From positions 509,378 through 573,377 of the forward strand of contig NZ_FOFD01000004.1 of assembly GCF_900110865.1 (NCBI RefSeq): a DNA stretch of 64,000 nucleotides. Direction: 5' to 3'. Numbering within the stretch: the first letter of the stretch is position 1; every line of letters begins with the position of its first letter. This DNA comes from Natrinema salaciae. Its GTDB lineage: Archaea > Halobacteriota > Halobacteria > Halobacteriales > Natrialbaceae. Shown here one piece after another: positions 116 through 41,016 of this stretch. The notes beneath the pieces are model-generated. The model worked only from the letters and a program-made list of their open reading frames with translations, was not told the origin of the DNA and searched no databases. The translations under genes were made by a program, and so were the position numbers.

Positions 116-300
116 GAGACGACGCGGACGACGACGCTGACGAGGGCACGCTCGAGCAAACCGACGAGAGTGCCGTCGTCGAGTTCGGTGATGACGGAGA
201 CGAACAGGGCGACGCGGACGCGTCGGCGTCCGACGCCGAGACGGTAGACGAGGAATCAACGGACAACGGGTTCACCTTCAGTCAGTTCGACGACGAGTAG
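1..300 (+). CDS. Methyl-accepting transducer, C-terminal end only (partial)
   Basis: This is the last 99 codons of a chemotaxis transducer whose 5' part lies outside the window. The first ~38 codons encode the helical C-terminal end of the signalling domain (AAAEEQTSAL, then LADQAAHLSETLDHFE). The rest is a low-complexity tail rich in Asp and Glu, ending in FTFSQFDDE. The second transducer downstream ends in the same style (FTFNQLDGE), so the two are paralogues. Bases 1-115 are identical to 4063-4177. The full receptor would be membrane-bound or cytoplasmic and feed CheA/CheW; which one cannot be told from this fragment. Confidence 0.9.
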   Translation, partial: AAAEEQTSALSEVSESASSLADQAAHLSETLDHFETEARDDADDDADEGTLEQTDESAVVEFGDDGDEQGDADASASDAETVDEESTDNGFTFSQFDDE

Positions 301-682
301 GGCGGTGAACTGGGACGGACGTTTTGTTTTGTCCCGTTCTGTGCGCGTGTGATCGATGAACGAGAACGCGCGAGATAAACTGGAGATGTCGCGTAGCGAG
401 TCAGTGGTCCTCGCCGCGACAATCGTTCAAAGCAGTACACATGTATTTTCAATTACTATTGGAACACGCTGGCTATGTCATATTACAAATTAAAATAGCA
501 GTCCAAAAATTGTGATTTCCGGAAGCCATCACTACTGTCGGCTCTTTCGGGTATGATTCCACGAAGTATAGTAGAGAAATCTGTTAGATCGCACCCATAT
601 GTCAGATCAGAATATGATACCGAAAAGACTTGTTGTTGTAATTGAACAGTGAAGTTATGTGGTATGAGTTGAATGCGAAGGT
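301..682. other. AT-rich intergenic region before binding-protein gene
   Basis: No credible gene is visible. The stretch from about 430 to 670 is markedly AT-rich against a high-GC background and contains several A/T runs and TATA-like boxes. It must carry the promoter of the binding-protein/transducer pair; no single box can be assigned with confidence. Confidence 0.5.
311..336 (+). terminator. Likely terminator after first transducer
   Basis: Just after the stop codon, gggac and gtccc arms enclose a segment with two T-runs (ttttgtttt). Oligo-T is the usual archaeal termination signal. Position and composition fit, but no more than that can be said from sequence. Confidence 0.45.
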
Positions 683-1951
683 ATGCCTGTACGATCGAAC
701 CGTCGGAAATTCATTACCGGTCTCGGCGCCGCTGGTCTCGGCGGGCTCGCCGGTTGTCTCGGCTCGGTTCCCGGACTCGGATCGAGCGACGTCGAGGACG
801 GGAGCGACGTAGGTGGTACCGACAGAACGCTCAAGCTCGGCGTTATGCAGCCGCTGAGCGGCGATCTCGGCTCGGTTGGCAAACCGATCCGGGACGCGGC
901 GCTCCTCCCAGTCCAACAAGTCCAAGACAGCGTCTCGCTCGAGATCGAGTACGACGTCGTGGACACGGAGACATCGCCGTCCGCGGGCGTGCAGGGTGCC
1001 GCCGACCTCGTCGCGGCCGAGTACCCGATGGTCAACGGGCCGGCCGCGTCCGACGTCACGTTACAGGCGACCCAGCAGGTTCTCATCCCGTACCGGACCG
1101 TCTCTTGCTCACCGAGTGCGACCTCGCCGACGATCACGTCGCTCAACGACGCCGGACTCGTCTTTCGGACCGCACTTTCGGACTCGTTGCAGGCCGTCGT
1201 CCTGGCTGACAGGGCGGTGACCGATCTCGGCCACGATCGCGCAGCGACCCTCTACGTGAACAACGACTACGGCTGGCAGTTGAGCCAGGCGTTCAGCCGA
1301 TCGTTTCAGGCCCGCCACGGGGGCACGGTCACGGCTCAGGTTCCGCTCAAGGAGGGCCGAAGCTCCTACGACGACGCCATCGAGCGCGTTCGAACCGACG
1401 ATCCGGAGCTGCTCGTCATAATCGGCTACCCCAAGACGGGGAGCCAGGTGTTCACCGATCTGGGCGCGGACGCCGAGGAGGACATTCTCGTCACCGACGG
1501 CTTGCAGGACGGCGAACTACAACAGGAGGTCGACTACTCGCTCGACGGCATCCGCGGAACGGCACCGCTGGTCGGCGGGCCCGGCAACGTGACGTTTACG
1601 GAGCTGTACGAGGACGAGTACGACGCCGAACCCAGCATCTTCACGTCCCACGCGTACGATGCGACCGCCGTCCTGTTGCTCGCGAACGCCTACGCCGGCC
1701 AGAACGACGGTACCGCGATCAGAAACGCAATGCAGGCGGTCACCACCGGTAACGGACAGTCCGTCGATCCGTCGTCCCTCGCCGACGGGCTCGAGCTGGC
1801 GGCCGAAGGTGAGCCGGTCACGTACGAGGGGGCCTCGAGTTCGGTCGGGTTCGACGAGAACGGCGACGTGGTCGACGCGACCTTCGAGTACTGGGAGTTC
1901 GATCAGAGTGCTGACGGCGGAATCGCCGAAATAGACCGGGTGAACGCGTGA
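683..1951 (+). CDS. Tat-exported substrate-binding lipoprotein (LivJ/type I periplasmic-binding fold)
   Basis: The 422-residue product starts with a twin-arginine signal (RRKFI, residues 7-11), a short hydrophobic run and a lipobox LAGC with the lipid-modified Cys at about residue 25, so it should be anchored on the outer face of the membrane. The mature part, beginning after a Gly/Ser/Asp linker with TLKLGVMQPLSGDLGSVG, is typical of branched-chain amino acid/amide binding proteins of the LivJ family. Its stop codon overlaps the start of the next gene, a transducer, and no ABC permease or ATPase is adjacent. This matches the BasB-BasT and CosB-CosT arrangement known from Halobacterium, in which the binding protein presents ligand to a transducer instead of a transporter. 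The ligand cannot be named. Confidence 0.88.
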   Translation: MPVRSNRRKFITGLGAAGLGGLAGCLGSVPGLGSSDVEDGSDVGGTDRTLKLGVMQPLSGDLGSVGKPIRDAALLPVQQVQDSVSLEIEYDVVDTETSPSAGVQGAADLVAAEYPMVNGPAASDVTLQATQQVLIPYRTVSCSPSATSPTITSLNDAGLVFRTALSDSLQAVVLADRAVTDLGHDRAATLYVNNDYGWQLSQAFSRSFQARHGGTVTAQVPLKEGRSSYDDAIERVRTDDPELLVIIGYPKTGSQVFTDLGADAEEDILVTDGLQDGELQQEVDYSLDGIRGTAPLVGGPGNVTFTELYEDEYDAEPSIFTSHAYDATAVLLLANAYAGQNDGTAIRNAMQAVTTGNGQSVDPSSLADGLELAAEGEPVTYEGASSSVGFDENGDVVDATFEYWEFDQSADGGIAEIDRVNA

Positions 1952-4434
1952 TGTCGTCGCTCGCGAAACTCGTTCCGTCGTTCGTCAGGCGGCGCTACCT
2001 CGTGAAGTTCGTGATTTCGATCCTGGTCGTCGTGCTGGTGATCGGCTCCGTCGGCTTCGTCAGCTACGCCCAGATCGACCAGACGGTCCGCGCGGACTCG
2101 AACGAGCAACTCGAGTCGACCGCCGAAATGCAGGCCGACGCGATCAGCAACTGGGTCGAGTCGATGCGGGTGCAGACGCGAACGGCGTCCGCATCGCCGA
2201 CCCTCCAGGACGGTGATCCGCAAGAAGTCCAGGCGCACCTCGTCGAAGAGCAAGCCCGGATGGACGTCGACGTGCGGGCGATCCACTACGTCGATACCGA
2301 GAACGACGAGATCATCACGAGTACGAACGCGGACTACCGCGGGGAGTCGTTCTCGTCGCTCGAGGAGCCCTGGGCGGACGGCGAGTTCACCGACGAGTTC
2401 GTCCTCGACGAGTCGGTCTGGAACTCGCCGGAGGCCTACGAGTCGCCCACGCTCGACGACCAAGTGATGGCCTTCGCCAGCCCGGTCACCGAGCGAGACG
2501 ATCGCGCCGTCATCATCATCGGCACGCTCGAGTACCAGGTCGGGCAGTTACAGGACGAGAACGCGTCCACGTCGACGATCATCCTCGACGAGAACGGATC
2601 GGCCATCTTCCAGGCCGAATCGGCGACGATCGACGCCGACGCCGTCGACGACGACGCGATGGAAGCCGCCCTCGGCGGGCGACTGACGCGCGTTCAGGAC
2701 GGCGACATCGTGCGGGCGTACGTCCCGGTCGGCAACACGCAGTGGGTCGCGGTCACCAGCGTTCCGACCGAGCAGGCATACGGCGTCGCGAGCGACGTCG
2801 GGACCAACGTCATCACGATGTTGCTCACGAGCCTCGTCACACTTGGGATCGTCGGCGTCGTCCTCGGACGGCAGACCGTCGTCCCGCTCGCCCGCCTGCG
2901 CGACCGGACGACGGAGATGGAAGAGGGGAACCTCGACGTCGATCTCGAGACGGACCGCGTCGACGAGATCGGCCGGCTCTACGACGGGTTCGACAGCATG
3001 CGCAACTCGCTGCGAAACCAGATCCAGGCCGCCGAGGACGCGCGCGAGGAGGCCGAAGCGGCCCGCGCCGAGACCGAGTCGATGAACCGGCATCTCGAGG
3101 CCAAAGCCGAGGAGTTCAGTGCGGTCATGGACGAGTGTGCCGACGGCGACCTGACGCGGCGGCTCGATCCCGAGAGCGAGAGCGACGCAATGAGCGATAT
3201 CGCGGTCGCGTTCAACGAAATGGTCGAGGAACTCGAGGGGACGACCGCCGACGTCAAGTCCTTCGCCAACGAGGTCGCGGCGGCCAGCGAACAGGTGACA
3301 GCCAGCTCCGAGGAGGTCCGGTCGGCATCCCAACAGGTCTCCGAGTCGATCCAGTCGATTTCGGACGGCGCTGACCAGCAGAACCAGAACCTGCAGTCGG
3401 TCAACCAGGAGATGAGCGGCCTCTCGACGACGACCGAGGAGATCGCGGCCTCCTCGAACAACGTCGCCGACATCGCCGAGCGGACGGCCGAAACCGGTCG
3501 CCTCGGTCGCGAGGCGGCACAGGAGGCCATCGACGGGATGCACGAGATCGAAGCGGAATCGATGGAAGCGGTCGACGCGATCGAAGAACTCGAGAGGGAG
3601 ATGGAGCAGGTCGACGAACTGGTCGAGTTCATCTCCGAGGTCGCCCGCGAGACGAACATGCTCGCGCTCAACGCCAACATCGAGGCATCCCGGGGAGCCA
3701 GCGGCGAGGACGGCTCCGGCTTCGGCGCGGTCGCGAAACAGGTCAAAGAGCTGGCTGCGGACACGAAATCGACCGCCGAAGACATCGAACAGCGGTTAGA
3801 GCGAGTCAACGAACAGACGAGCGAGACGACGATCGAGGTCCAGCGGACGGCGGATCGGATCGCGGAGCACGTCGACTCCGTCGAGAACGCCGCCGAGGCG
3901 CTCGACGAGATCGCCGATTACGCCGAGCAGACCAACGACGGCGTCCAGGAGATTTCGGCGGCGACCGAGGAGCAGGCGGCCTCGACCCAGGAGGTCGTCG
4001 CGATGGTCTCGACGGCGACCAACATTTCCGAATCGACGGCGGCTGAATCCCAGCGCGTCGCGGCGGCCGCGGAAGAGCAGACGTCCGCCCTCTCGGAGGT
4101 CTCCGAGAGCGCGAGTTCGCTCGCGGATCAGGCGGCTCACCTGAGCGAGACGCTCGACCACTTCGAGACCGAGGCGAACGACGACGAGGACGGCGACCGC
4201 GAGACGTCGCTGACGTTCGACGGGGTGAACGTCGACGGCAGCGAGGACGGACGCGAGCGAACGGACGGCGCGGACGCGACCGATGAAACTGACGACGCAC
4301 CGTTCCGACCTGACTCGGACGCGACCGATGAAACTGACGACGCACCGTCCCGACCTGACTCGGACGCGAACGACGACGAGGACGGCGGGCAGTTCGACGA
4401 CTCGTTCACGTTCAACCAGCTCGACGGCGAGTAG
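1951..4434 (+). CDS. Transmembrane chemotaxis transducer (Bas/Cos-like partner of the binding lipoprotein)
   Basis: The ATG at 1951 overlaps the preceding stop (TGATG), implying translational coupling; a GTG one codon earlier is also possible. Order of parts: first membrane helix at about residues 19-42; an extracellular sensor of about 240 residues (Cache-like in size and position); a second helix near 287-307; HAMP (VVPLARLRDR onward); a long coiled-coil; and the signalling hairpin near 560-610 (ETNMLALNANIEASRG, then GFGAVAKQVKELA). The tail is very acidic and contains a 15-residue tandem repeat. It should relay ligand information from the upstream lipoprotein to CheA/CheW. A stretch inside the signalling domain is base-for-base identical to the neighbouring transducer. 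Confidence 0.93.
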   Translation: MSSLAKLVPSFVRRRYLVKFVISILVVVLVIGSVGFVSYAQIDQTVRADSNEQLESTAEMQADAISNWVESMRVQTRTASASPTLQDGDPQEVQAHLVEEQARMDVDVRAIHYVDTENDEIITSTNADYRGESFSSLEEPWADGEFTDEFVLDESVWNSPEAYESPTLDDQVMAFASPVTERDDRAVIIIGTLEYQVGQLQDENASTSTIILDENGSAIFQAESATIDADAVDDDAMEAALGGRLTRVQDGDIVRAYVPVGNTQWVAVTSVPTEQAYGVASDVGTNVITMLLTSLVTLGIVGVVLGRQTVVPLARLRDRTTEMEEGNLDVDLETDRVDEIGRLYDGFDSMRNSLRNQIQAAEDAREEAEAARAETESMNRHLEAKAEEFSAVMDECADGDLTRRLDPESESDAMSDIAVAFNEMVEELEGTTADVKSFANEVAAASEQVTASSEEVRSASQQVSESIQSISDGADQQNQNLQSVNQEMSGLSTTTEEIAASSNNVADIAERTAETGRLGREAAQEAIDGMHEIEAESMEAVDAIEELEREMEQVDELVEFISEVARETNMLALNANIEASRGASGEDGSGFGAVAKQVKELAADTKSTAEDIEQRLERVNEQTSETTIEVQRTADRIAEHVDSVENAAEALDEIADYAEQTNDGVQEISAATEEQAASTQEVVAMVSTATNISESTAAESQRVAAAAEEQTSALSEVSESASSLADQAAHLSETLDHFETEANDDEDGDRETSLTFDGVNVDGSEDGRERTDGADATDETDDAPFRPDSDATDETDDAPSRPDSDANDDEDGGQFDDSFTFNQLDGE
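4063..4177 (+). repeat. Identical copy of transducer signalling-domain block (copy 2)
   Basis: This is identical to bases 1-115 of the window and lies inside the second transducer, covering the end of the signalling helix just before the acidic tail. Confidence 0.92.
4276..4365 (+). repeat. Two tandem 45-base units in transducer tail
   Basis: Units 4276-4320 and 4321-4365 differ at one base and encode 15-residue acidic repeats (pattern ATDETDDAP, then RPDSD). A degenerate third start (gcgaacgac) follows. The repeat is in frame, so its copy number can vary without breaking the gene. Confidence 0.9.
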
Positions 4435-35965: not shown

Positions 35966-36943
35966 CTACTGCTCGCGCTCGAGTGCCGTCAGCGATTCGA
36001 TCCGTTCGTCCGTCGGCGGGTGCGTTTCGAAGAGGAACCGCTCGAGCCGGTGGAGTCGTCTTCGAAGCGACCAGTGCGACGGTTCGACGTCGCCCTCGGG
36101 TCCAAGCATGATCTTTTCGGGTTCCGCCGGCTCGAGCGAGAGGATCGATACCGAAGAGACGCCCGACGCGTCACGGAGGTCTCGAGACGGCGTATCGGCG
36201 ATCTCCCGATCCAATCGCTGGAGCGCACTGGCGAGAGCAGCGGGTGAGCCGGTTACCTCCGCGGCCGCCCGATCCGCCGCTCGTTCCCTGACTCTGGTGA
36301 GGCGGGCCGTGATCGTCCGCCCAACGATCCAGACGCCCGTCGAGAGCAATCCCAGCGGGACGGTGACGATCGCGGCCCACCCGGGGTCGTCGATCCGATC
36401 GATCCGCGACCGCAGCCCGTCGGCGAGTACGACGGGGAGCGACACGGCCGTCACGACTATCGCGTCGCGGTTTCTGACGTGAGCGAGTTCGTGTGCGATC
36501 ACCGCCTCTAGCTCGTCTCGCTCGTCGAGCGCGTCGATCACCCCGCGCGAGAGCACCAGATGAACTGACTCCGGTCGGAATCCGACGGCCAACGCTTCGG
36601 GCGCGTCCCGCTCCGAGACGGCGATCGTCGGCACGGGGACGTCGAGTTGGGCCGCGACCCGCGTCGTCGTCTCGTACAGCACCGGAGCCGTCTCTCGGTC
36701 CACCGGCTGGGCGTCCGCGAGCCGCTCGATCGTCTCGAGGTGTCTGTACTCGAGATAGCCGATCGACAACAGCGTTACGGCGGTGCTGACGAACGCGATC
36801 CGGGATGCAAACGCGAGCCCGAAAAAGGAGAGAACGCCGTAGAAAACGGCCCAGACTCCCACGAGCAGCCCGAGTGTGACGACCGCGAGTCCGAGGAGGG
36901 CAGCAACCATTCGCGCGCGAAGACCAGTTGGTCTGGCGGTCAT
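35966..36943 (-). CDS. htpX: HtpX-like membrane zinc protease (M48)
   Basis: The 325-residue product has two N-terminal membrane helices (about 12-60), the zinc site IAHELAHVRNRD (HELAH near 151-155), two further hydrophobic segments after it, and a C-terminal cytoplasmic part ending THPPTDERIESLTALE, whose late Glu/Asp residues are usual in the family. It degrades damaged membrane proteins. ATG 36943 is chosen; an ATG 11 codons later is possible. Confidence 0.9.
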   Translation of the reverse strand: MTARPTGLRARMVAALLGLAVVTLGLLVGVWAVFYGVLSFFGLAFASRIAFVSTAVTLLSIGYLEYRHLETIERLADAQPVDRETAPVLYETTTRVAAQLDVPVPTIAVSERDAPEALAVGFRPESVHLVLSRGVIDALDERDELEAVIAHELAHVRNRDAIVVTAVSLPVVLADGLRSRIDRIDDPGWAAIVTVPLGLLSTGVWIVGRTITARLTRVRERAADRAAAEVTGSPAALASALQRLDREIADTPSRDLRDASGVSSVSILSLEPAEPEKIMLGPEGDVEPSHWSLRRRLHRLERFLFETHPPTDERIESLTALEREQ

Positions 36944-37243
36944 GGTCGTCGAATTCGGATGCGCGGATAAAGTGTTATCGAAGAGACGGGTTCGGCGGGG
37001 TTCCCGTGACCGGAATTCGATACCGAGCCCGATCACGACGGGACGAACAGCAAGGCTCCGTTGAAATCCAATTGTTCAGAGATATCGTAGCGTGAAACGC
37101 ACGCTCGCTACACGTGCGAACGCAGCGGTGACGGTTGGATACCTCCCAGAGCTGTTGACGAAGTCGTGCTGAATACGAGGCACGTATCCTGCAGCCCTCT
37201 CAAAGATACTGTTGCCTCGATTTCGCGCGCCTGCGCCGTATCG
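36944..37243. other. Spacer with an inverted-repeat end
   Basis: No gene is seen. It contains one arm of the 16-base inverted repeat (37054-37069) and is slightly richer in A/T than nearby genes, which would suit the edge of an inserted segment. Confidence 0.45.
37054..37069 (+). repeat. Left arm of 16-base inverted repeat flanking the kinase/regulator pair
   Basis: The sequence ggctccgttgaaatcc matches the reverse complement of 40277-40292 (ggctctgttgaaatcc) at 15 of 16 bases. The sequence recalls terminal repeats of haloarchaeal insertion sequences, but no transposase lies between the arms. Confidence 0.6.
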
Positions 37244-37579
37244 TTACTCGTTCGTTGATGACAGACGGACGACTGCAAGCCAGAACTCCTCGAGCGTTCG
37301 GATGCGGTCGGTGAACGCGTCGGGGCTGACCGGCCTGGTGAGGTATGCGTTCGCGTCTTCCACGTAACGGAAATCCAATGCCGCTTGCCCGTCCGTGACG
37401 GCCCGAAGGTCGTCGCTGATCCGTTCATCCTCGAACGCCTCCCGTGTTCGTCGAACGTCCCCGAGGGTATCCTCGACGAGCAGAATCTCGGCTGGTTCAC
37501 GGCGATCAGTCGTCGATTCCCTCCGCTGTCGTGGTCTGTCCGGTGGACTGATCGCCGGGATCACGTGACCGATTCGCAT
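37244..37579 (-). pseudogene. Response regulator lacking its phospho-acceptor region
   Basis: The front (AEILLVEDTLGDVRRTREAF, then DGQAALDF) and back (ANAYLTRPVSPDAFTDRIR, EEFWLAVVRL) match Rcp1-type receivers. About 55-60 residues between them, which normally hold the phospho-accepting Asp, LLDLNLP-type loop and the Thr of VLTSS, are absent. The frame stays open across the join, so a short stable protein without phosphorylation site could be made. The gene overlaps the 3' end of the kinase; the only ATG in frame before the domain is at 37579. It could be a pseudogene or a regulatory derivative. Confidence 0.72.
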
Positions 37580-39935
37580 CCGGAATGGTGAAGTAAAATG
37601 TCGATCCGTCACCCGGCTCGGACTCGACCCAGATATCACCGCCGTGTCGGTCGATGATCTCCGTACACAGCGCCAGCCCGATACCGGTTCCCGAGTGTTC
37701 CTCGGCGGTGTGAAGCCGCTCGAACACGTCGAAAATACGGTCGGTCTGCTCAGGGTCCATCCCGATGCCGTTGTCGGCTACCTGGAACACCCACTTCCCA
37801 CCGTCACGTTCGGCGCTGATCTCGATCTCCGGGGGATCGTCGCCGTGATACTTGATGGCGTTCGAGACGAGGTTCTGAAACACCTGTTCGAGCTGATTCT
37901 GATCGATCGGGACCGTCGGCAAGGATCCGATGTCGATTTTGGCGTCGTTCTCTTCGATCTGTCGCTCGAGGTTTCTGAGCGCGTTCTCGATGACCGCACC
38001 ACAATCGGTGGGTTCGAGCGGTGCGGCCTCGGTATTGATCCGCGAGTACGCGAGCAGATCCTCGATCATCTCACGCATCCGCTCGGCACCATCAACCGCG
38101 AATTCGATGAATTCCTCGGCGTCCTGATCGAGTTCGTCCGCGTATCGACCTTCGAGGAGTTGGAGGTAGCTCGACACCATCCGAAGGGGCTCCTGGAGGT
38201 CGTGGGAGGCCACGTAGGCAAACTGTTCGAGTCGCTCGTTGGACTCCTCGAGCTTTCGTTGGTACTCCTTCAGTTCGGTGATGTCGCGGGTGACGCCCAC
38301 CCGCCCCATCTCGTCATCGATTTCGAGGGGGACGAACCGGTTGTGTACGACGCGGACCTCGACATCCGGCCCGATGATTTCCGTCTCGAACTCGACTGAG
38401 TCGCGTTCACCGTCGATGAGTTCGCACCATTCCTCCTCGTCCGTGTCCACGAAACGCTCGCCGAAGAAGACCGAACCGTGAGCGCCCAGCAACTCCTCCC
38501 GGGTGTGCTGACTCATCGAGACGAAGGCGTCGTTGACGAAGACGATGTGGCCGTCGCCGTCGGTGGCGTACACCCCGTCGTTGACGGTCTCGACTATCCG
38601 CTCAAACCGCTCTAACTGCTGCTCGCGTTTCTTGCGCTCGGTGACGTCGTTCGCGTCGCCGACGATTCGATAGGCGTCGCCGTTCTGGTCGTAGATAGGG
38701 GTAGCCCGATCGTGGATCCACCGAACCTCGCCGTCGGGCCGAACGATCCGGTACTCGGCCTCGTGCCTGTCTTGCACCTGTTTGTGGAATTCCTCGAGCA
38801 CCCGCTCCCGATCGTCCGGATGGATCGTCTCGGCCCAAGCCGTGGCGTTCTCGTAGAGGTCTTCGCGGTCCACTCCCCAGACCTCCTCGTAAGCGGGGTT
38901 CACGTAAAGGAGCTCCTGCTGATCGGCAGTCGTCATCCAGACGACCTGGTCGAGGTGCTCGGCGAGCTGTCGGAATCGGCGTTCGCTCTCGCGAAGCTCC
39001 TGTTCCATCCGCTTGCGCTCGGTGATGTCGCGGACGACGCCGACACGACCCCACCCGCCCTCGACCGGAAACTGCCTGAGCCGGCTCTCGACGGTGATCG
39101 CTTCGTCCTCGGCTGTGTAGATCTCCTCCTCGAACGAGGCGACATCCGTCTCGCCGGACTCGAATTGGTGCCGCGCCTCCGCGTCGATGTCTTCGAAATT
39201 TGTCCCGAACACCGCCGAGGCGTAGGTCCCCAGAAGCTCCGAGCGGTCGAAGTGCGTCATCGAGACGAACGCGTCGTTCACCCGCTGGAACCGCCTTGCC
39301 TCGTCGAGGACGTAGACGCCGTCGTCGACTGTTTCGACGATCCGCTCGTACTCTTCGAGGTTTTCTCGGGCTCGCCCCAGTTCCGTATTGCGTCGTTCGA
39401 GTTCGCTTGCGCGCGTTCTCGCCCGGGAGTCGTGGAAGCCGATAGCGTACCCAGCGATGCCACCGAGTGAAGCCAGGTTGAGGATGACGCGAGGGGGGTC
39501 GGTCAAGTTTCCGGCGGCTGGCTGGACGTGATAGAGCCAGAGAGTCGTGGCCGTCACGACAACGCTACCGACACACCAAACACCGATAACCGGATAGTAG
39601 CGAGGATCGATGTCGGTATCCGGTAACTGGGACGAGGAGTAGATGAGGATGGCTCCTGAACCAGCGGATAAGCTGAAGGCGATAAATATGTCGAACGGCG
39701 GCGCGTTTCTCGAGGTCAACGTATACGCCAACGCGGCGGCGAGGACGATCAGCAGGCCCCCGAGGAGCACGATGGAGTATCGCCCACTAACGGCGCGCAT
39801 CCACCGATGCCTGTCAATGGCGCGGATCAATCGGCGTACGCCAGTCACCTCCTCACGAAGAGTCGCTTGCTTCCTTGAGGTGTTCTTGGTCTGAGATCGG
39901 TCGCTTGTGTCCGATCTTGTATTCTCTCTTGTCAT
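37506..39935 (-). CDS. Membrane histidine kinase with three PAS domains
   Basis: The 809-residue product has an N-terminal region with four to five membrane helices (about 50-165), a coiled segment, and PAS domains at about 190-310, 310-435 and 435-560 (each opening like YERIVETVDDGVYVLDE, FRQLAEHLDQVVWMTT). HisKA follows with phospho-accepting His in YVASHDLQEPLRM (about 582), then HATPase motifs NLVSNAIKYHG, VADNGIGMDP and HSGTGIGLAL. A ribosome-binding-like gagg precedes ATG 39935. Its expected partner, overlapping downstream, has lost its receiver Asp, so signalling would need another regulator. Confidence 0.93.
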   Translation of the reverse strand: MTRENTRSDTSDRSQTKNTSRKQATLREEVTGVRRLIRAIDRHRWMRAVSGRYSIVLLGGLLIVLAAALAYTLTSRNAPPFDIFIAFSLSAGSGAILIYSSSQLPDTDIDPRYYPVIGVWCVGSVVVTATTLWLYHVQPAAGNLTDPPRVILNLASLGGIAGYAIGFHDSRARTRASELERRNTELGRARENLEEYERIVETVDDGVYVLDEARRFQRVNDAFVSMTHFDRSELLGTYASAVFGTNFEDIDAEARHQFESGETDVASFEEEIYTAEDEAITVESRLRQFPVEGGWGRVGVVRDITERKRMEQELRESERRFRQLAEHLDQVVWMTTADQQELLYVNPAYEEVWGVDREDLYENATAWAETIHPDDRERVLEEFHKQVQDRHEAEYRIVRPDGEVRWIHDRATPIYDQNGDAYRIVGDANDVTERKKREQQLERFERIVETVNDGVYATDGDGHIVFVNDAFVSMSQHTREELLGAHGSVFFGERFVDTDEEEWCELIDGERDSVEFETEIIGPDVEVRVVHNRFVPLEIDDEMGRVGVTRDITELKEYQRKLEESNERLEQFAYVASHDLQEPLRMVSSYLQLLEGRYADELDQDAEEFIEFAVDGAERMREMIEDLLAYSRINTEAAPLEPTDCGAVIENALRNLERQIEENDAKIDIGSLPTVPIDQNQLEQVFQNLVSNAIKYHGDDPPEIEISAERDGGKWVFQVADNGIGMDPEQTDRIFDVFERLHTAEEHSGTGIGLALCTEIIDRHGGDIWVESEPGDGSTFYFTIPDANRSRDPGDQSTGQTTTAEGIDD

Positions 39936-40152
39936 TCCTCGGGAGGTCCTTTACTGCGGAACGCGTGGGGCAGCTACCGCGTTCCCCGCAATCGCCCCTT
40001 TCGTCAGTGGGGATCGACGTTGGGCGTGACCTAATTGTCCATCTGGTATCGGGGGGACGGGGATAATCCTGCTGGTTGTCCCTACCTGTTCCTGGGTAGA
40101 AACGAAGGCGGTAAGCGGCTCACCGAGTATACGCCGGCCTGTTGTTGATGCG

Positions 40153-40181
40153 CTGCTGCAGACACACTCCGTATGCAGCAG
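40153..40181. repeat. Hairpin ctgctgca / tgcagcag
   Basis: An 8-base perfect stem (40153-40160 and 40174-40181) with a 13-base loop, followed by a T-run (gtgttttt) on the plus strand. It may be a terminator or an element-end structure. Confidence 0.45.
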
Positions 40182-40276
40182 GGTGTTTTTGTCAGATATT
40201 GAATTATCGAAGGGCTGCTCTGGTACCGCCTTCGTCTGTACGTACCGCAGTGAACTCCGAAGCCAGCATCTTCTAC

Positions 40277-40292
40277 GGATTTCAACAGAGCC
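40277..40292 (-). repeat. Right arm of 16-base inverted repeat
   Basis: It reads ggctctgttgaaatcc on the minus strand, one mismatch from the left arm at 37054-37069. Together they bracket about 3.2 kb containing the kinase and defective regulator. Confidence 0.6.
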
Positions 40293-40494
40293 AACGGCAA
40301 CCAACGCGACACGATACCGCTTCCGTCCGAACGTCGCTCGAGACCCGCGCCCAGCGGCGAGCGCATCGCGAACCGTCGGAGTGCAGCACCGAAGACGGTC
40401 GAACGACCAGTGTCGTACGCGGTTACTGGCGGTCTCACGGCCCGAACCCGTACCGATCGCCGGGAGCCGCTTCGACGGCACTATCGGTGGCGAG

Positions 40495-41016
40495 TCACAG
40501 TTCGTCGCCGCTGTCGAAACCGCGGGAGTCGGATTCGTCGAACCCGAATTCGTCGCCGTCGGTGTCGCCGACTGCTGTCTCGTCGATGTCGAACTCGTCG
40601 GTCTCGAGTGCCGAGCCGTCGGCGCTGATGGCCCCGTCCTGGATCTCGATGGTGACCCCGTCCTCGCCGCCGCTCGAGCCGAGGAGCCGGGTGGTCGCCG
40701 TCTCGAGTTCCTGGTTGACCGACCAGACGAACCGCAGCACGGACTCGAGTTCGGTGCCGGCCTCGCGGACGCCGCGCTGTGGCGAGAGGTCGCCCAGGCT
40801 CCGCGCGCCCTCGGGATGGAGGTACTGGATCGGGTGGTCGGTGGGGACCTCCTGCAGGTCGACGTCGAACGACCAGAGGTACGGCAGGGCCTGAATGGCG
40901 TAGCCCTGGGGTTTCGGTGCCCGCCGACCGGCGGCGGTCAGCGCGACGTTGATCGCCGTCGACTCCGCGTCGGTGTCGAAGTAGATGCCGGGAGCGCCGG
41001 GAATGGAGACTCGCAT
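40495..41016 (-). CDS. Acidic haloarchaeal protein of unknown function
   Basis: The 173-residue product has an ordered-looking first part (VSIPGAPGIYFDTDAESTAI, FVWSVNQELETATTRLL), then a strongly acidic tail (EFDIDETAVGDTDGDEFGFD). No signal peptide, membrane helix or motif identifies it. It stands alone on the minus strand between the kinase spacer and the M32 carboxypeptidase. The codon pattern is normal for the genome. Confidence 0.65.
   Translation of the reverse strand: MRVSIPGAPGIYFDTDAESTAINVALTAAGRRAPKPQGYAIQALPYLWSFDVDLQEVPTDHPIQYLHPEGARSLGDLSPQRGVREAGTELESVLRFVWSVNQELETATTRLLGSSGGEDGVTIEIQDGAISADGSALETDEFDIDETAVGDTDGDEFGFDESDSRGFDSGDEL

Follow-up and report, generated by a model that had tools for sequence, protein, structure and literature searches.

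A sensor kinase between IS5-type ends in Natrinema salaciae, probably a decayed mobile insertion cassette

A sensor histidine kinase gene of Natrinema salaciae lies between two short inverted repeats that face each other across about 3.2 kb, which raises the question of whether it is an ordinary chromosomal gene or was carried to this place between the ends of a mobile element. We analysed the surrounding window (the whole stretch of DNA, 64 kb) from the host genome (G000; 4.86 Mb, 11 contigs). G and L numbers denote genomes and loci, respectively. The features at issue are as follows.

35966..37036, minus strand: left flanking gene, M48 peptidase (Pfam), outside the unit
37046..37053, strand not applicable: target duplication, left copy, 8 bp, AACAGCAA, 7/8 against the right copy
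37054..37069, plus strand: left arm GGCTCCGTTGAAATCC (inverted-repeat comparison of the window)
37054..37171, plus strand: left end module, B type, transposase-distal (profile match 37054-37122, E 2.1e-8)
37166..37184, plus strand: inner motif GTGCTGAATACGAGGCACG, 112 bp from the left arm
37244..37500, minus strand: response-regulator (receiver) remnant (alignment with Natrinema gelatinilyticum)
37506..39935, minus strand: sensor histidine kinase, 809 aa, intact ORF (ORF list, Pfam)
40153..40181, strand not applicable: hairpin at the inner border of the right end (stem 40153-40160/40174-40181)
40172..40292, minus strand: right end module, A type without transposase (profile match 40292-40272, E 0.005)
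40277..40292, minus strand: right arm GGCTCTGTTGAAATCC (inverted-repeat comparison of the window)
40293..40300, strand not applicable: target duplication, right copy, AACGGCAA, 7/8 against the left copy
40495..41016, minus strand: right flanking gene, 173 aa, no Pfam match, outside the unit (ORF list, Pfam)

We consider the segment 37054-40292 (3239 bp; hereafter the unit) to be, probably, a decayed mobile insertion cassette (MIC), which an IS5-type transposase would have moved in trans.

A sequence-only reading of the window had placed near-perfectly inverse 16-base arms at 37054 and 40277. They are present there and agree at 15/16 positions, a single base differing. As proof by themselves the arms were rejected, since such pairs are frequent in this window: 42 inverted 16-bp pairs (<=1 mismatch, <=4 kb apart) were counted in the 64 kb, against 6-24 (mean 14.9) in 12 dinucleotide shuffles. 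Allowing <=3 mismatches, chance alone would give about 0.74 matches to the 16-mer. A search for a target-site duplication outside the arms, as that reading had proposed, yielded the 8-mers AACAGCAA and AACGGCAA immediately adjacent to them. These are 7/8 identical, and agreement of >=7/8 has P = 0.0013 among random 8-mers of the window. We read this match as a worn target duplication, its imperfection being a point against the cassette reading. The arms are taken as element ends because the flanking duplication, an extended match to IS ends and an empty site all coincide with them.

The extended match was established with profiles of the two kinds of end that intact elements possess, A adjoining the start of the transposase and B on the far side; the terminal 75 bp of 11 units with a transposase were used, and the window was excluded. 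Across the 64-kb window, the B profile matched best at 37054-37122 (E 2.1e-8), then at the right arm (0.0045) and then at 0.29, and the best match of the A profile, a weak one, was at 40292-40272 (E 0.005). Both ends of the unit therefore match an identifiable IS, the B end strongly and the A end weakly. They form part of end modules of about 115-120 bp each, which recur in two other transposase-less units, L104 and L218; the left module is 86% identical to that of L104 and 83% to that of L218 (each over 64 bp), and the right module 79% (63 bp) and 72% (about 121 bp), respectively. The unit thus has one B-type and one A-type end, oriented as in an intact element, with no transposase following the right end. 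There is no IS body on either side, as a composite transposon with an IS copy at each end would have. The arm consensus GGCTCTGTTGAAATCC (<=1 mismatch) occurred in 33/41 genomes (the host and 40 relatives), compared with 0/41 for a reversed control pattern. When 331 bp around the left end were searched against the host genome, the sole match was itself.

That no transposase lies inside the unit, as first read from the sequence, was borne out by tblastn at E 1e-4, for which the queries were two complete transposases of the cognate group. The proposal to look for the 16-mer beside transposase genes also proved productive; it was found in elements of related haloarchaea with perfect 8-bp duplications. 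Two intact elements on annotated plasmids (L066, L067) have arms as in the window, an IS5-family transposase and 8/8 duplications, one in Halomarina sp. BCD28 (1266 bp, duplication GCCGGGTT) and the other, L067, in Haladaptatus halobius (1733 bp, AAATTTTT), where it carries a RibD_C-domain gene as passenger. In Natrinema caseinilyticum (L068) the transposase end is present and the partner arm was not recognised. The L067 transposase scored 206 bits against NCBIfam transpos_IS5_2 (NF033579; cut-off 140) and matched DDE_Tnp_1; this IS5-type DDE character belongs to the cognate element, not to the window unit, and the cognate IS is assigned to family level only. It may resemble an ISH element. 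A search of the host genome for an intact transposase of this IS5 group returned only eight partial matches.

We compared the insertion site across relatives, as the sequence-only reading had suggested. Relatives of the 173-aa gene occur in 24/24 same-genus genomes and 0/16 others. The M48 gene adjoins it in 6/24 (G001, G004, G005, G009, G013, G014), truA is reached without M48 beside the 173-aa gene at 13/24 loci, and neither M48 nor truA lies within the stretch at 5/24. No kinase was matched at this locus at E 1e-6 in longer stretches from ten loci, including those five. In G014 the joined window flanks align through the junction, and the uninterrupted site reads GGCGGCAA where the window holds two target copies. 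Read most simply, this alignment points to an insertion acquired by the window lineage once it had diverged from G014; the alternative for this single comparison is a clean loss from G014. Flanks conserved without the kinase and regulator had been named as evidence against a mobile unit. They do occur, but insertion itself predicts them, and the proposal is not refuted. Separately, at L069 (G010), L073 (G003) and L074 (G017), the interval from the 173-aa gene to truA contains, in place of M48, different DNA of ~3 to 5.5 kb; this gap looks variable within the genus.

The lower GC content and the hairpin reported from the sequence were both confirmed. GC is 60.1% in the unit against 64.8% in the window, and the terminal 118 bp are more AT-rich still (55.1% GC left, 50.8% right). 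The hairpin at 40153-40181 has a DNA fold of -11.5 kcal/mol (z -2.6; 1/200 shuffles equally good), compared with a weak one at the inner motif on the left (z -1.0), and an Rfam search returned nothing at E 0.1. The inner motif has equal spacing in L155 and L169 and a matching position in L218. As a shared structure it was rejected, the hairpin being strong on the right only and other units pairing the motif with different outer sequences. Its form GTGCTGAATACAGAGCGC recurs ~112 bp inward of the arms in L155, L169 and the window, and also behind very different outer sequences, some of the form GTGTCATAGAA; loci with the motif are the window (37166-37184 and 40153-40181), L144, L151, L154, L160, L163 and L166-L171. 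It may lie where end modules and cargo are joined, or be the mark of a related element family.

The cargo had been described as a kinase/regulator pair. The kinase is intact and comprises a weak 4TM region, three PAS stretches, HisKA and HATPase_c (Pfam), but the regulator is a broken remnant that has lost, in frame and internally, about 59 codons of the receiver core relative to N. gelatinilyticum and has no Pfam match. The idea that the kinase is a widely distributed gene was rejected, as 41 genomes contained one close relative only (87% over aa 1-311; next best 38%); a named genome collection had four loci, one of them close. The N. gelatinilyticum relative is on a plasmid, with 92% DNA identity over 2722 bp. 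Homology spans unit positions of about 119 to 3121, starting within the left end module near the inner motif and stopping near the right hairpin. No recognisable arms flank this kinase block, and ends and cargo are therefore separable. The window kinase was not found between arms at a second site in the 41 genomes or the named collection; with its single close relative armless, movement of this cargo as a unit is seen once only. The N. gelatinilyticum receiver keeps the ~177-bp core missing from the window, but an insertion and a stop interrupt it, and it has N at the position where a phospho-accepting D would be expected. This regulator (L140 7700-8320) is thus also decayed, with lesions that differ from those in the window. 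With the receiver beside it broken, the window kinase would be predicted to work through a different regulator or to have no action.

A second kinase-bearing unit, L218 (G021:C4:148624; 3501 bp), is flanked by TCTCGATT on both sides (8/8) and gave no transposase match. Its single gene encodes a protein of 1053 aa that combines PAS domains with HisKA and HATPase_c and is 42% identical to the window kinase over the best-matching part; at other sites, the best match to the L218 kinase reached 74% DNA identity across part of the query. In L218 the gene is read from the B end toward the A end, the window kinase in the opposite direction. Judged by these comparisons, L218 is an independent second transposase-less unit with the window's end modules and a different kinase. 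Different kinases in opposite orientation between common ends imply that the ends took up distinct kinases.

We further surveyed the family to which these units belong. Pairs of consensus arms in the genomes, plasmid records and the host genome gave a first set of 24 units, including the window, with a 7/8 or 8/8 duplication; pairs with poorer duplications (L079, L088, L090, L091, L093, L094, L099, L101, L102, L107) were left out. Among 40 new B-end places examined in 29 genomes of the genus, a partner arm with a 7/8 or 8/8 duplication was present in 11 and none in 29. Of the resulting 35 units, 17 had a transposase match (some partial) and 18 (124 to 3501 bp) had none. Pfam was run on 29 cargo ORFs (three from uncounted pairs) and on the ORFs of L066-L068 and L001, short ORFs being partly covered. 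PAS histidine kinases were found in L218 and the window, HalOD1 in L108, L193 and L216, an AsnC-type HTH with DUF7344 in L104, HTH_10/BAT with DUF7344 in L086, and BAT/HTH_10 with Amphi-Trp in L097. Other cargo included RibD_C (L067), cupin (L217) and weak Amino_oxidase matches (L092, L095); most remaining ORFs searched had no Pfam match. The host genome itself holds a second transposase-less unit (G000:C1:205226-205924, L108 227-925; 699 bp) with a HalOD1 gene and the duplication GCACAGAT/GCGCAGAT (7/8). L092 (G016) and L095 (G006), each with an 8/8 duplication, have the same passenger gene beside a transposase, a passenger that seems to have travelled along with its element.

Three other histories were weighed against one-piece movement. 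Unlikely, in our view, is a sequence of events in which a MITE-like element of arms and end modules inserted first and the kinase block recombined into it later, perhaps at the inner motif. Transposase-less units of 124-521 bp that share the arms do exist, several with 8/8 duplications, and the borders of the N. gelatinilyticum homology near the inner motif and the hairpin agree with such a step; L218, however, is a kinase unit of like design with an 8/8 duplication, and the two-step history would have to have happened again there before the duplication showed any wear. Less probable again is entry as a transporter IS, with its own transposase and the kinase, followed by loss of the transposase. 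Passenger-carrying transposase units are common in the family (L067, L086, L097 and others), but no transposase trace is left in the unit at E 1e-4 and its right module resembles those of L104 and L218 rather than a short transposase end. That the kinase gene is an ordinary chromosomal one with inverted repeats around it by chance, for which the many inverted pairs in this GC-rich window and the expected 16-mer matches might speak, is scarcely credible given the empty site, the extended end match and the 8-bp duplication coinciding with the arms.

The decayed-cassette reading would run as follows. A haloarchaeal IS5-family element would have given rise to a derivative that lacks a transposase, in which one end of each type encloses the kinase and the now decayed regulator. 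An IS5-type DDE transposase from another element would have recognised both ends in trans and inserted the unit between the genes for the M48 peptidase and the 173-aa protein with an 8-bp stagger, giving the 8-bp duplication. We infer movement in one piece, a helper of this IS5 group and present immobility. The window copy is probably immobile now because no intact cognate transposase was found in the genome, and the worn duplication agrees with this. Against the cassette reading count the imperfect duplication, the failure to find such a transposase, the single observed movement of this cargo, the weak profile match of the right end and the 29/40 B ends without a partner arm and duplication. 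The ends, the 7/8 duplication, the empty site in G014, the cognate elements and L218 together support the earlier suggestion of a non-autonomous mobile unit carrying a sensor kinase. Its alternative, relics of IS ends, holds insofar as the copy is decayed and no intact cognate transposase was found in its genome, but not otherwise.

More tentatively, and with the balance of our judgement against it, the genus might run a cassette system in which IS5-type ends pick up regulatory genes time after time and move them without a transposase (kinases twice, HalOD1 three times, an AsnC-type/DUF7344 pair, and BAT/HTH_10 in transposase-bearing forms), the inner motif ~112 bp inside the arms serving as the joint where ends and cargo are swapped. 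If true, haloarchaea would owe part of their large, lineage-specific sensory repertoires to such a system. The unit itself indicates that whole multi-domain sensor kinases can ride simple IS ends in archaea without a transposase of their own, and it offers a concrete and testable way for haloarchaea to acquire signalling genes and shuffle them. Searches for mobile elements that rely on transposases miss such units, and we found no report in the open-licence literature of a sensor kinase carried between IS ends in archaea.

Classical examples of MICs come from Bacillus. Both MICs, which are IS-related units without a transposase, and transporter ISs, which are ISs with passenger genes, are established concepts in the relevant sections of PMC3129680. 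In common with MICs as outlined there, the unit has IS ends around a gene unneeded for transposition (the histidine kinase), no transposase, a target duplication (7/8) with an empty site (G014), and presumed movement in trans. The cognate elements L067 (RibD_C), L086 and L097 have the form of transporter ISs as those sections define them (PMC3129680), whereas the window unit has no transposase of its own. The MITEs of Haloquadratum, including the ISH2-type HqIRS32, likewise lack a transposase and have the terminal repeats and duplication length of a transposon; one contains a non-transposase ORF, and mobility was noted even with all transposase copies broken (PMC3119063, sections on MITEs). 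The longest MITE in those sections is about 520 bp, whereas the window unit, at 3239 bp and with an 809-aa ORF, exceeds the few hundred bp without large-protein coding of a MITE. With the IS5 family the unit shares its arms, the cognate transposase being the NF033579 match, but it consists of the ends only. In form, we class it as a mobile insertion cassette, and we infer that it was mobilised in trans. It differs from known MICs in its long conserved end modules, which are common to other cassettes of the genus, and is new relative to them in its haloarchaeal host, its IS5-family ends and its cargo, a multi-domain sensor kinase.
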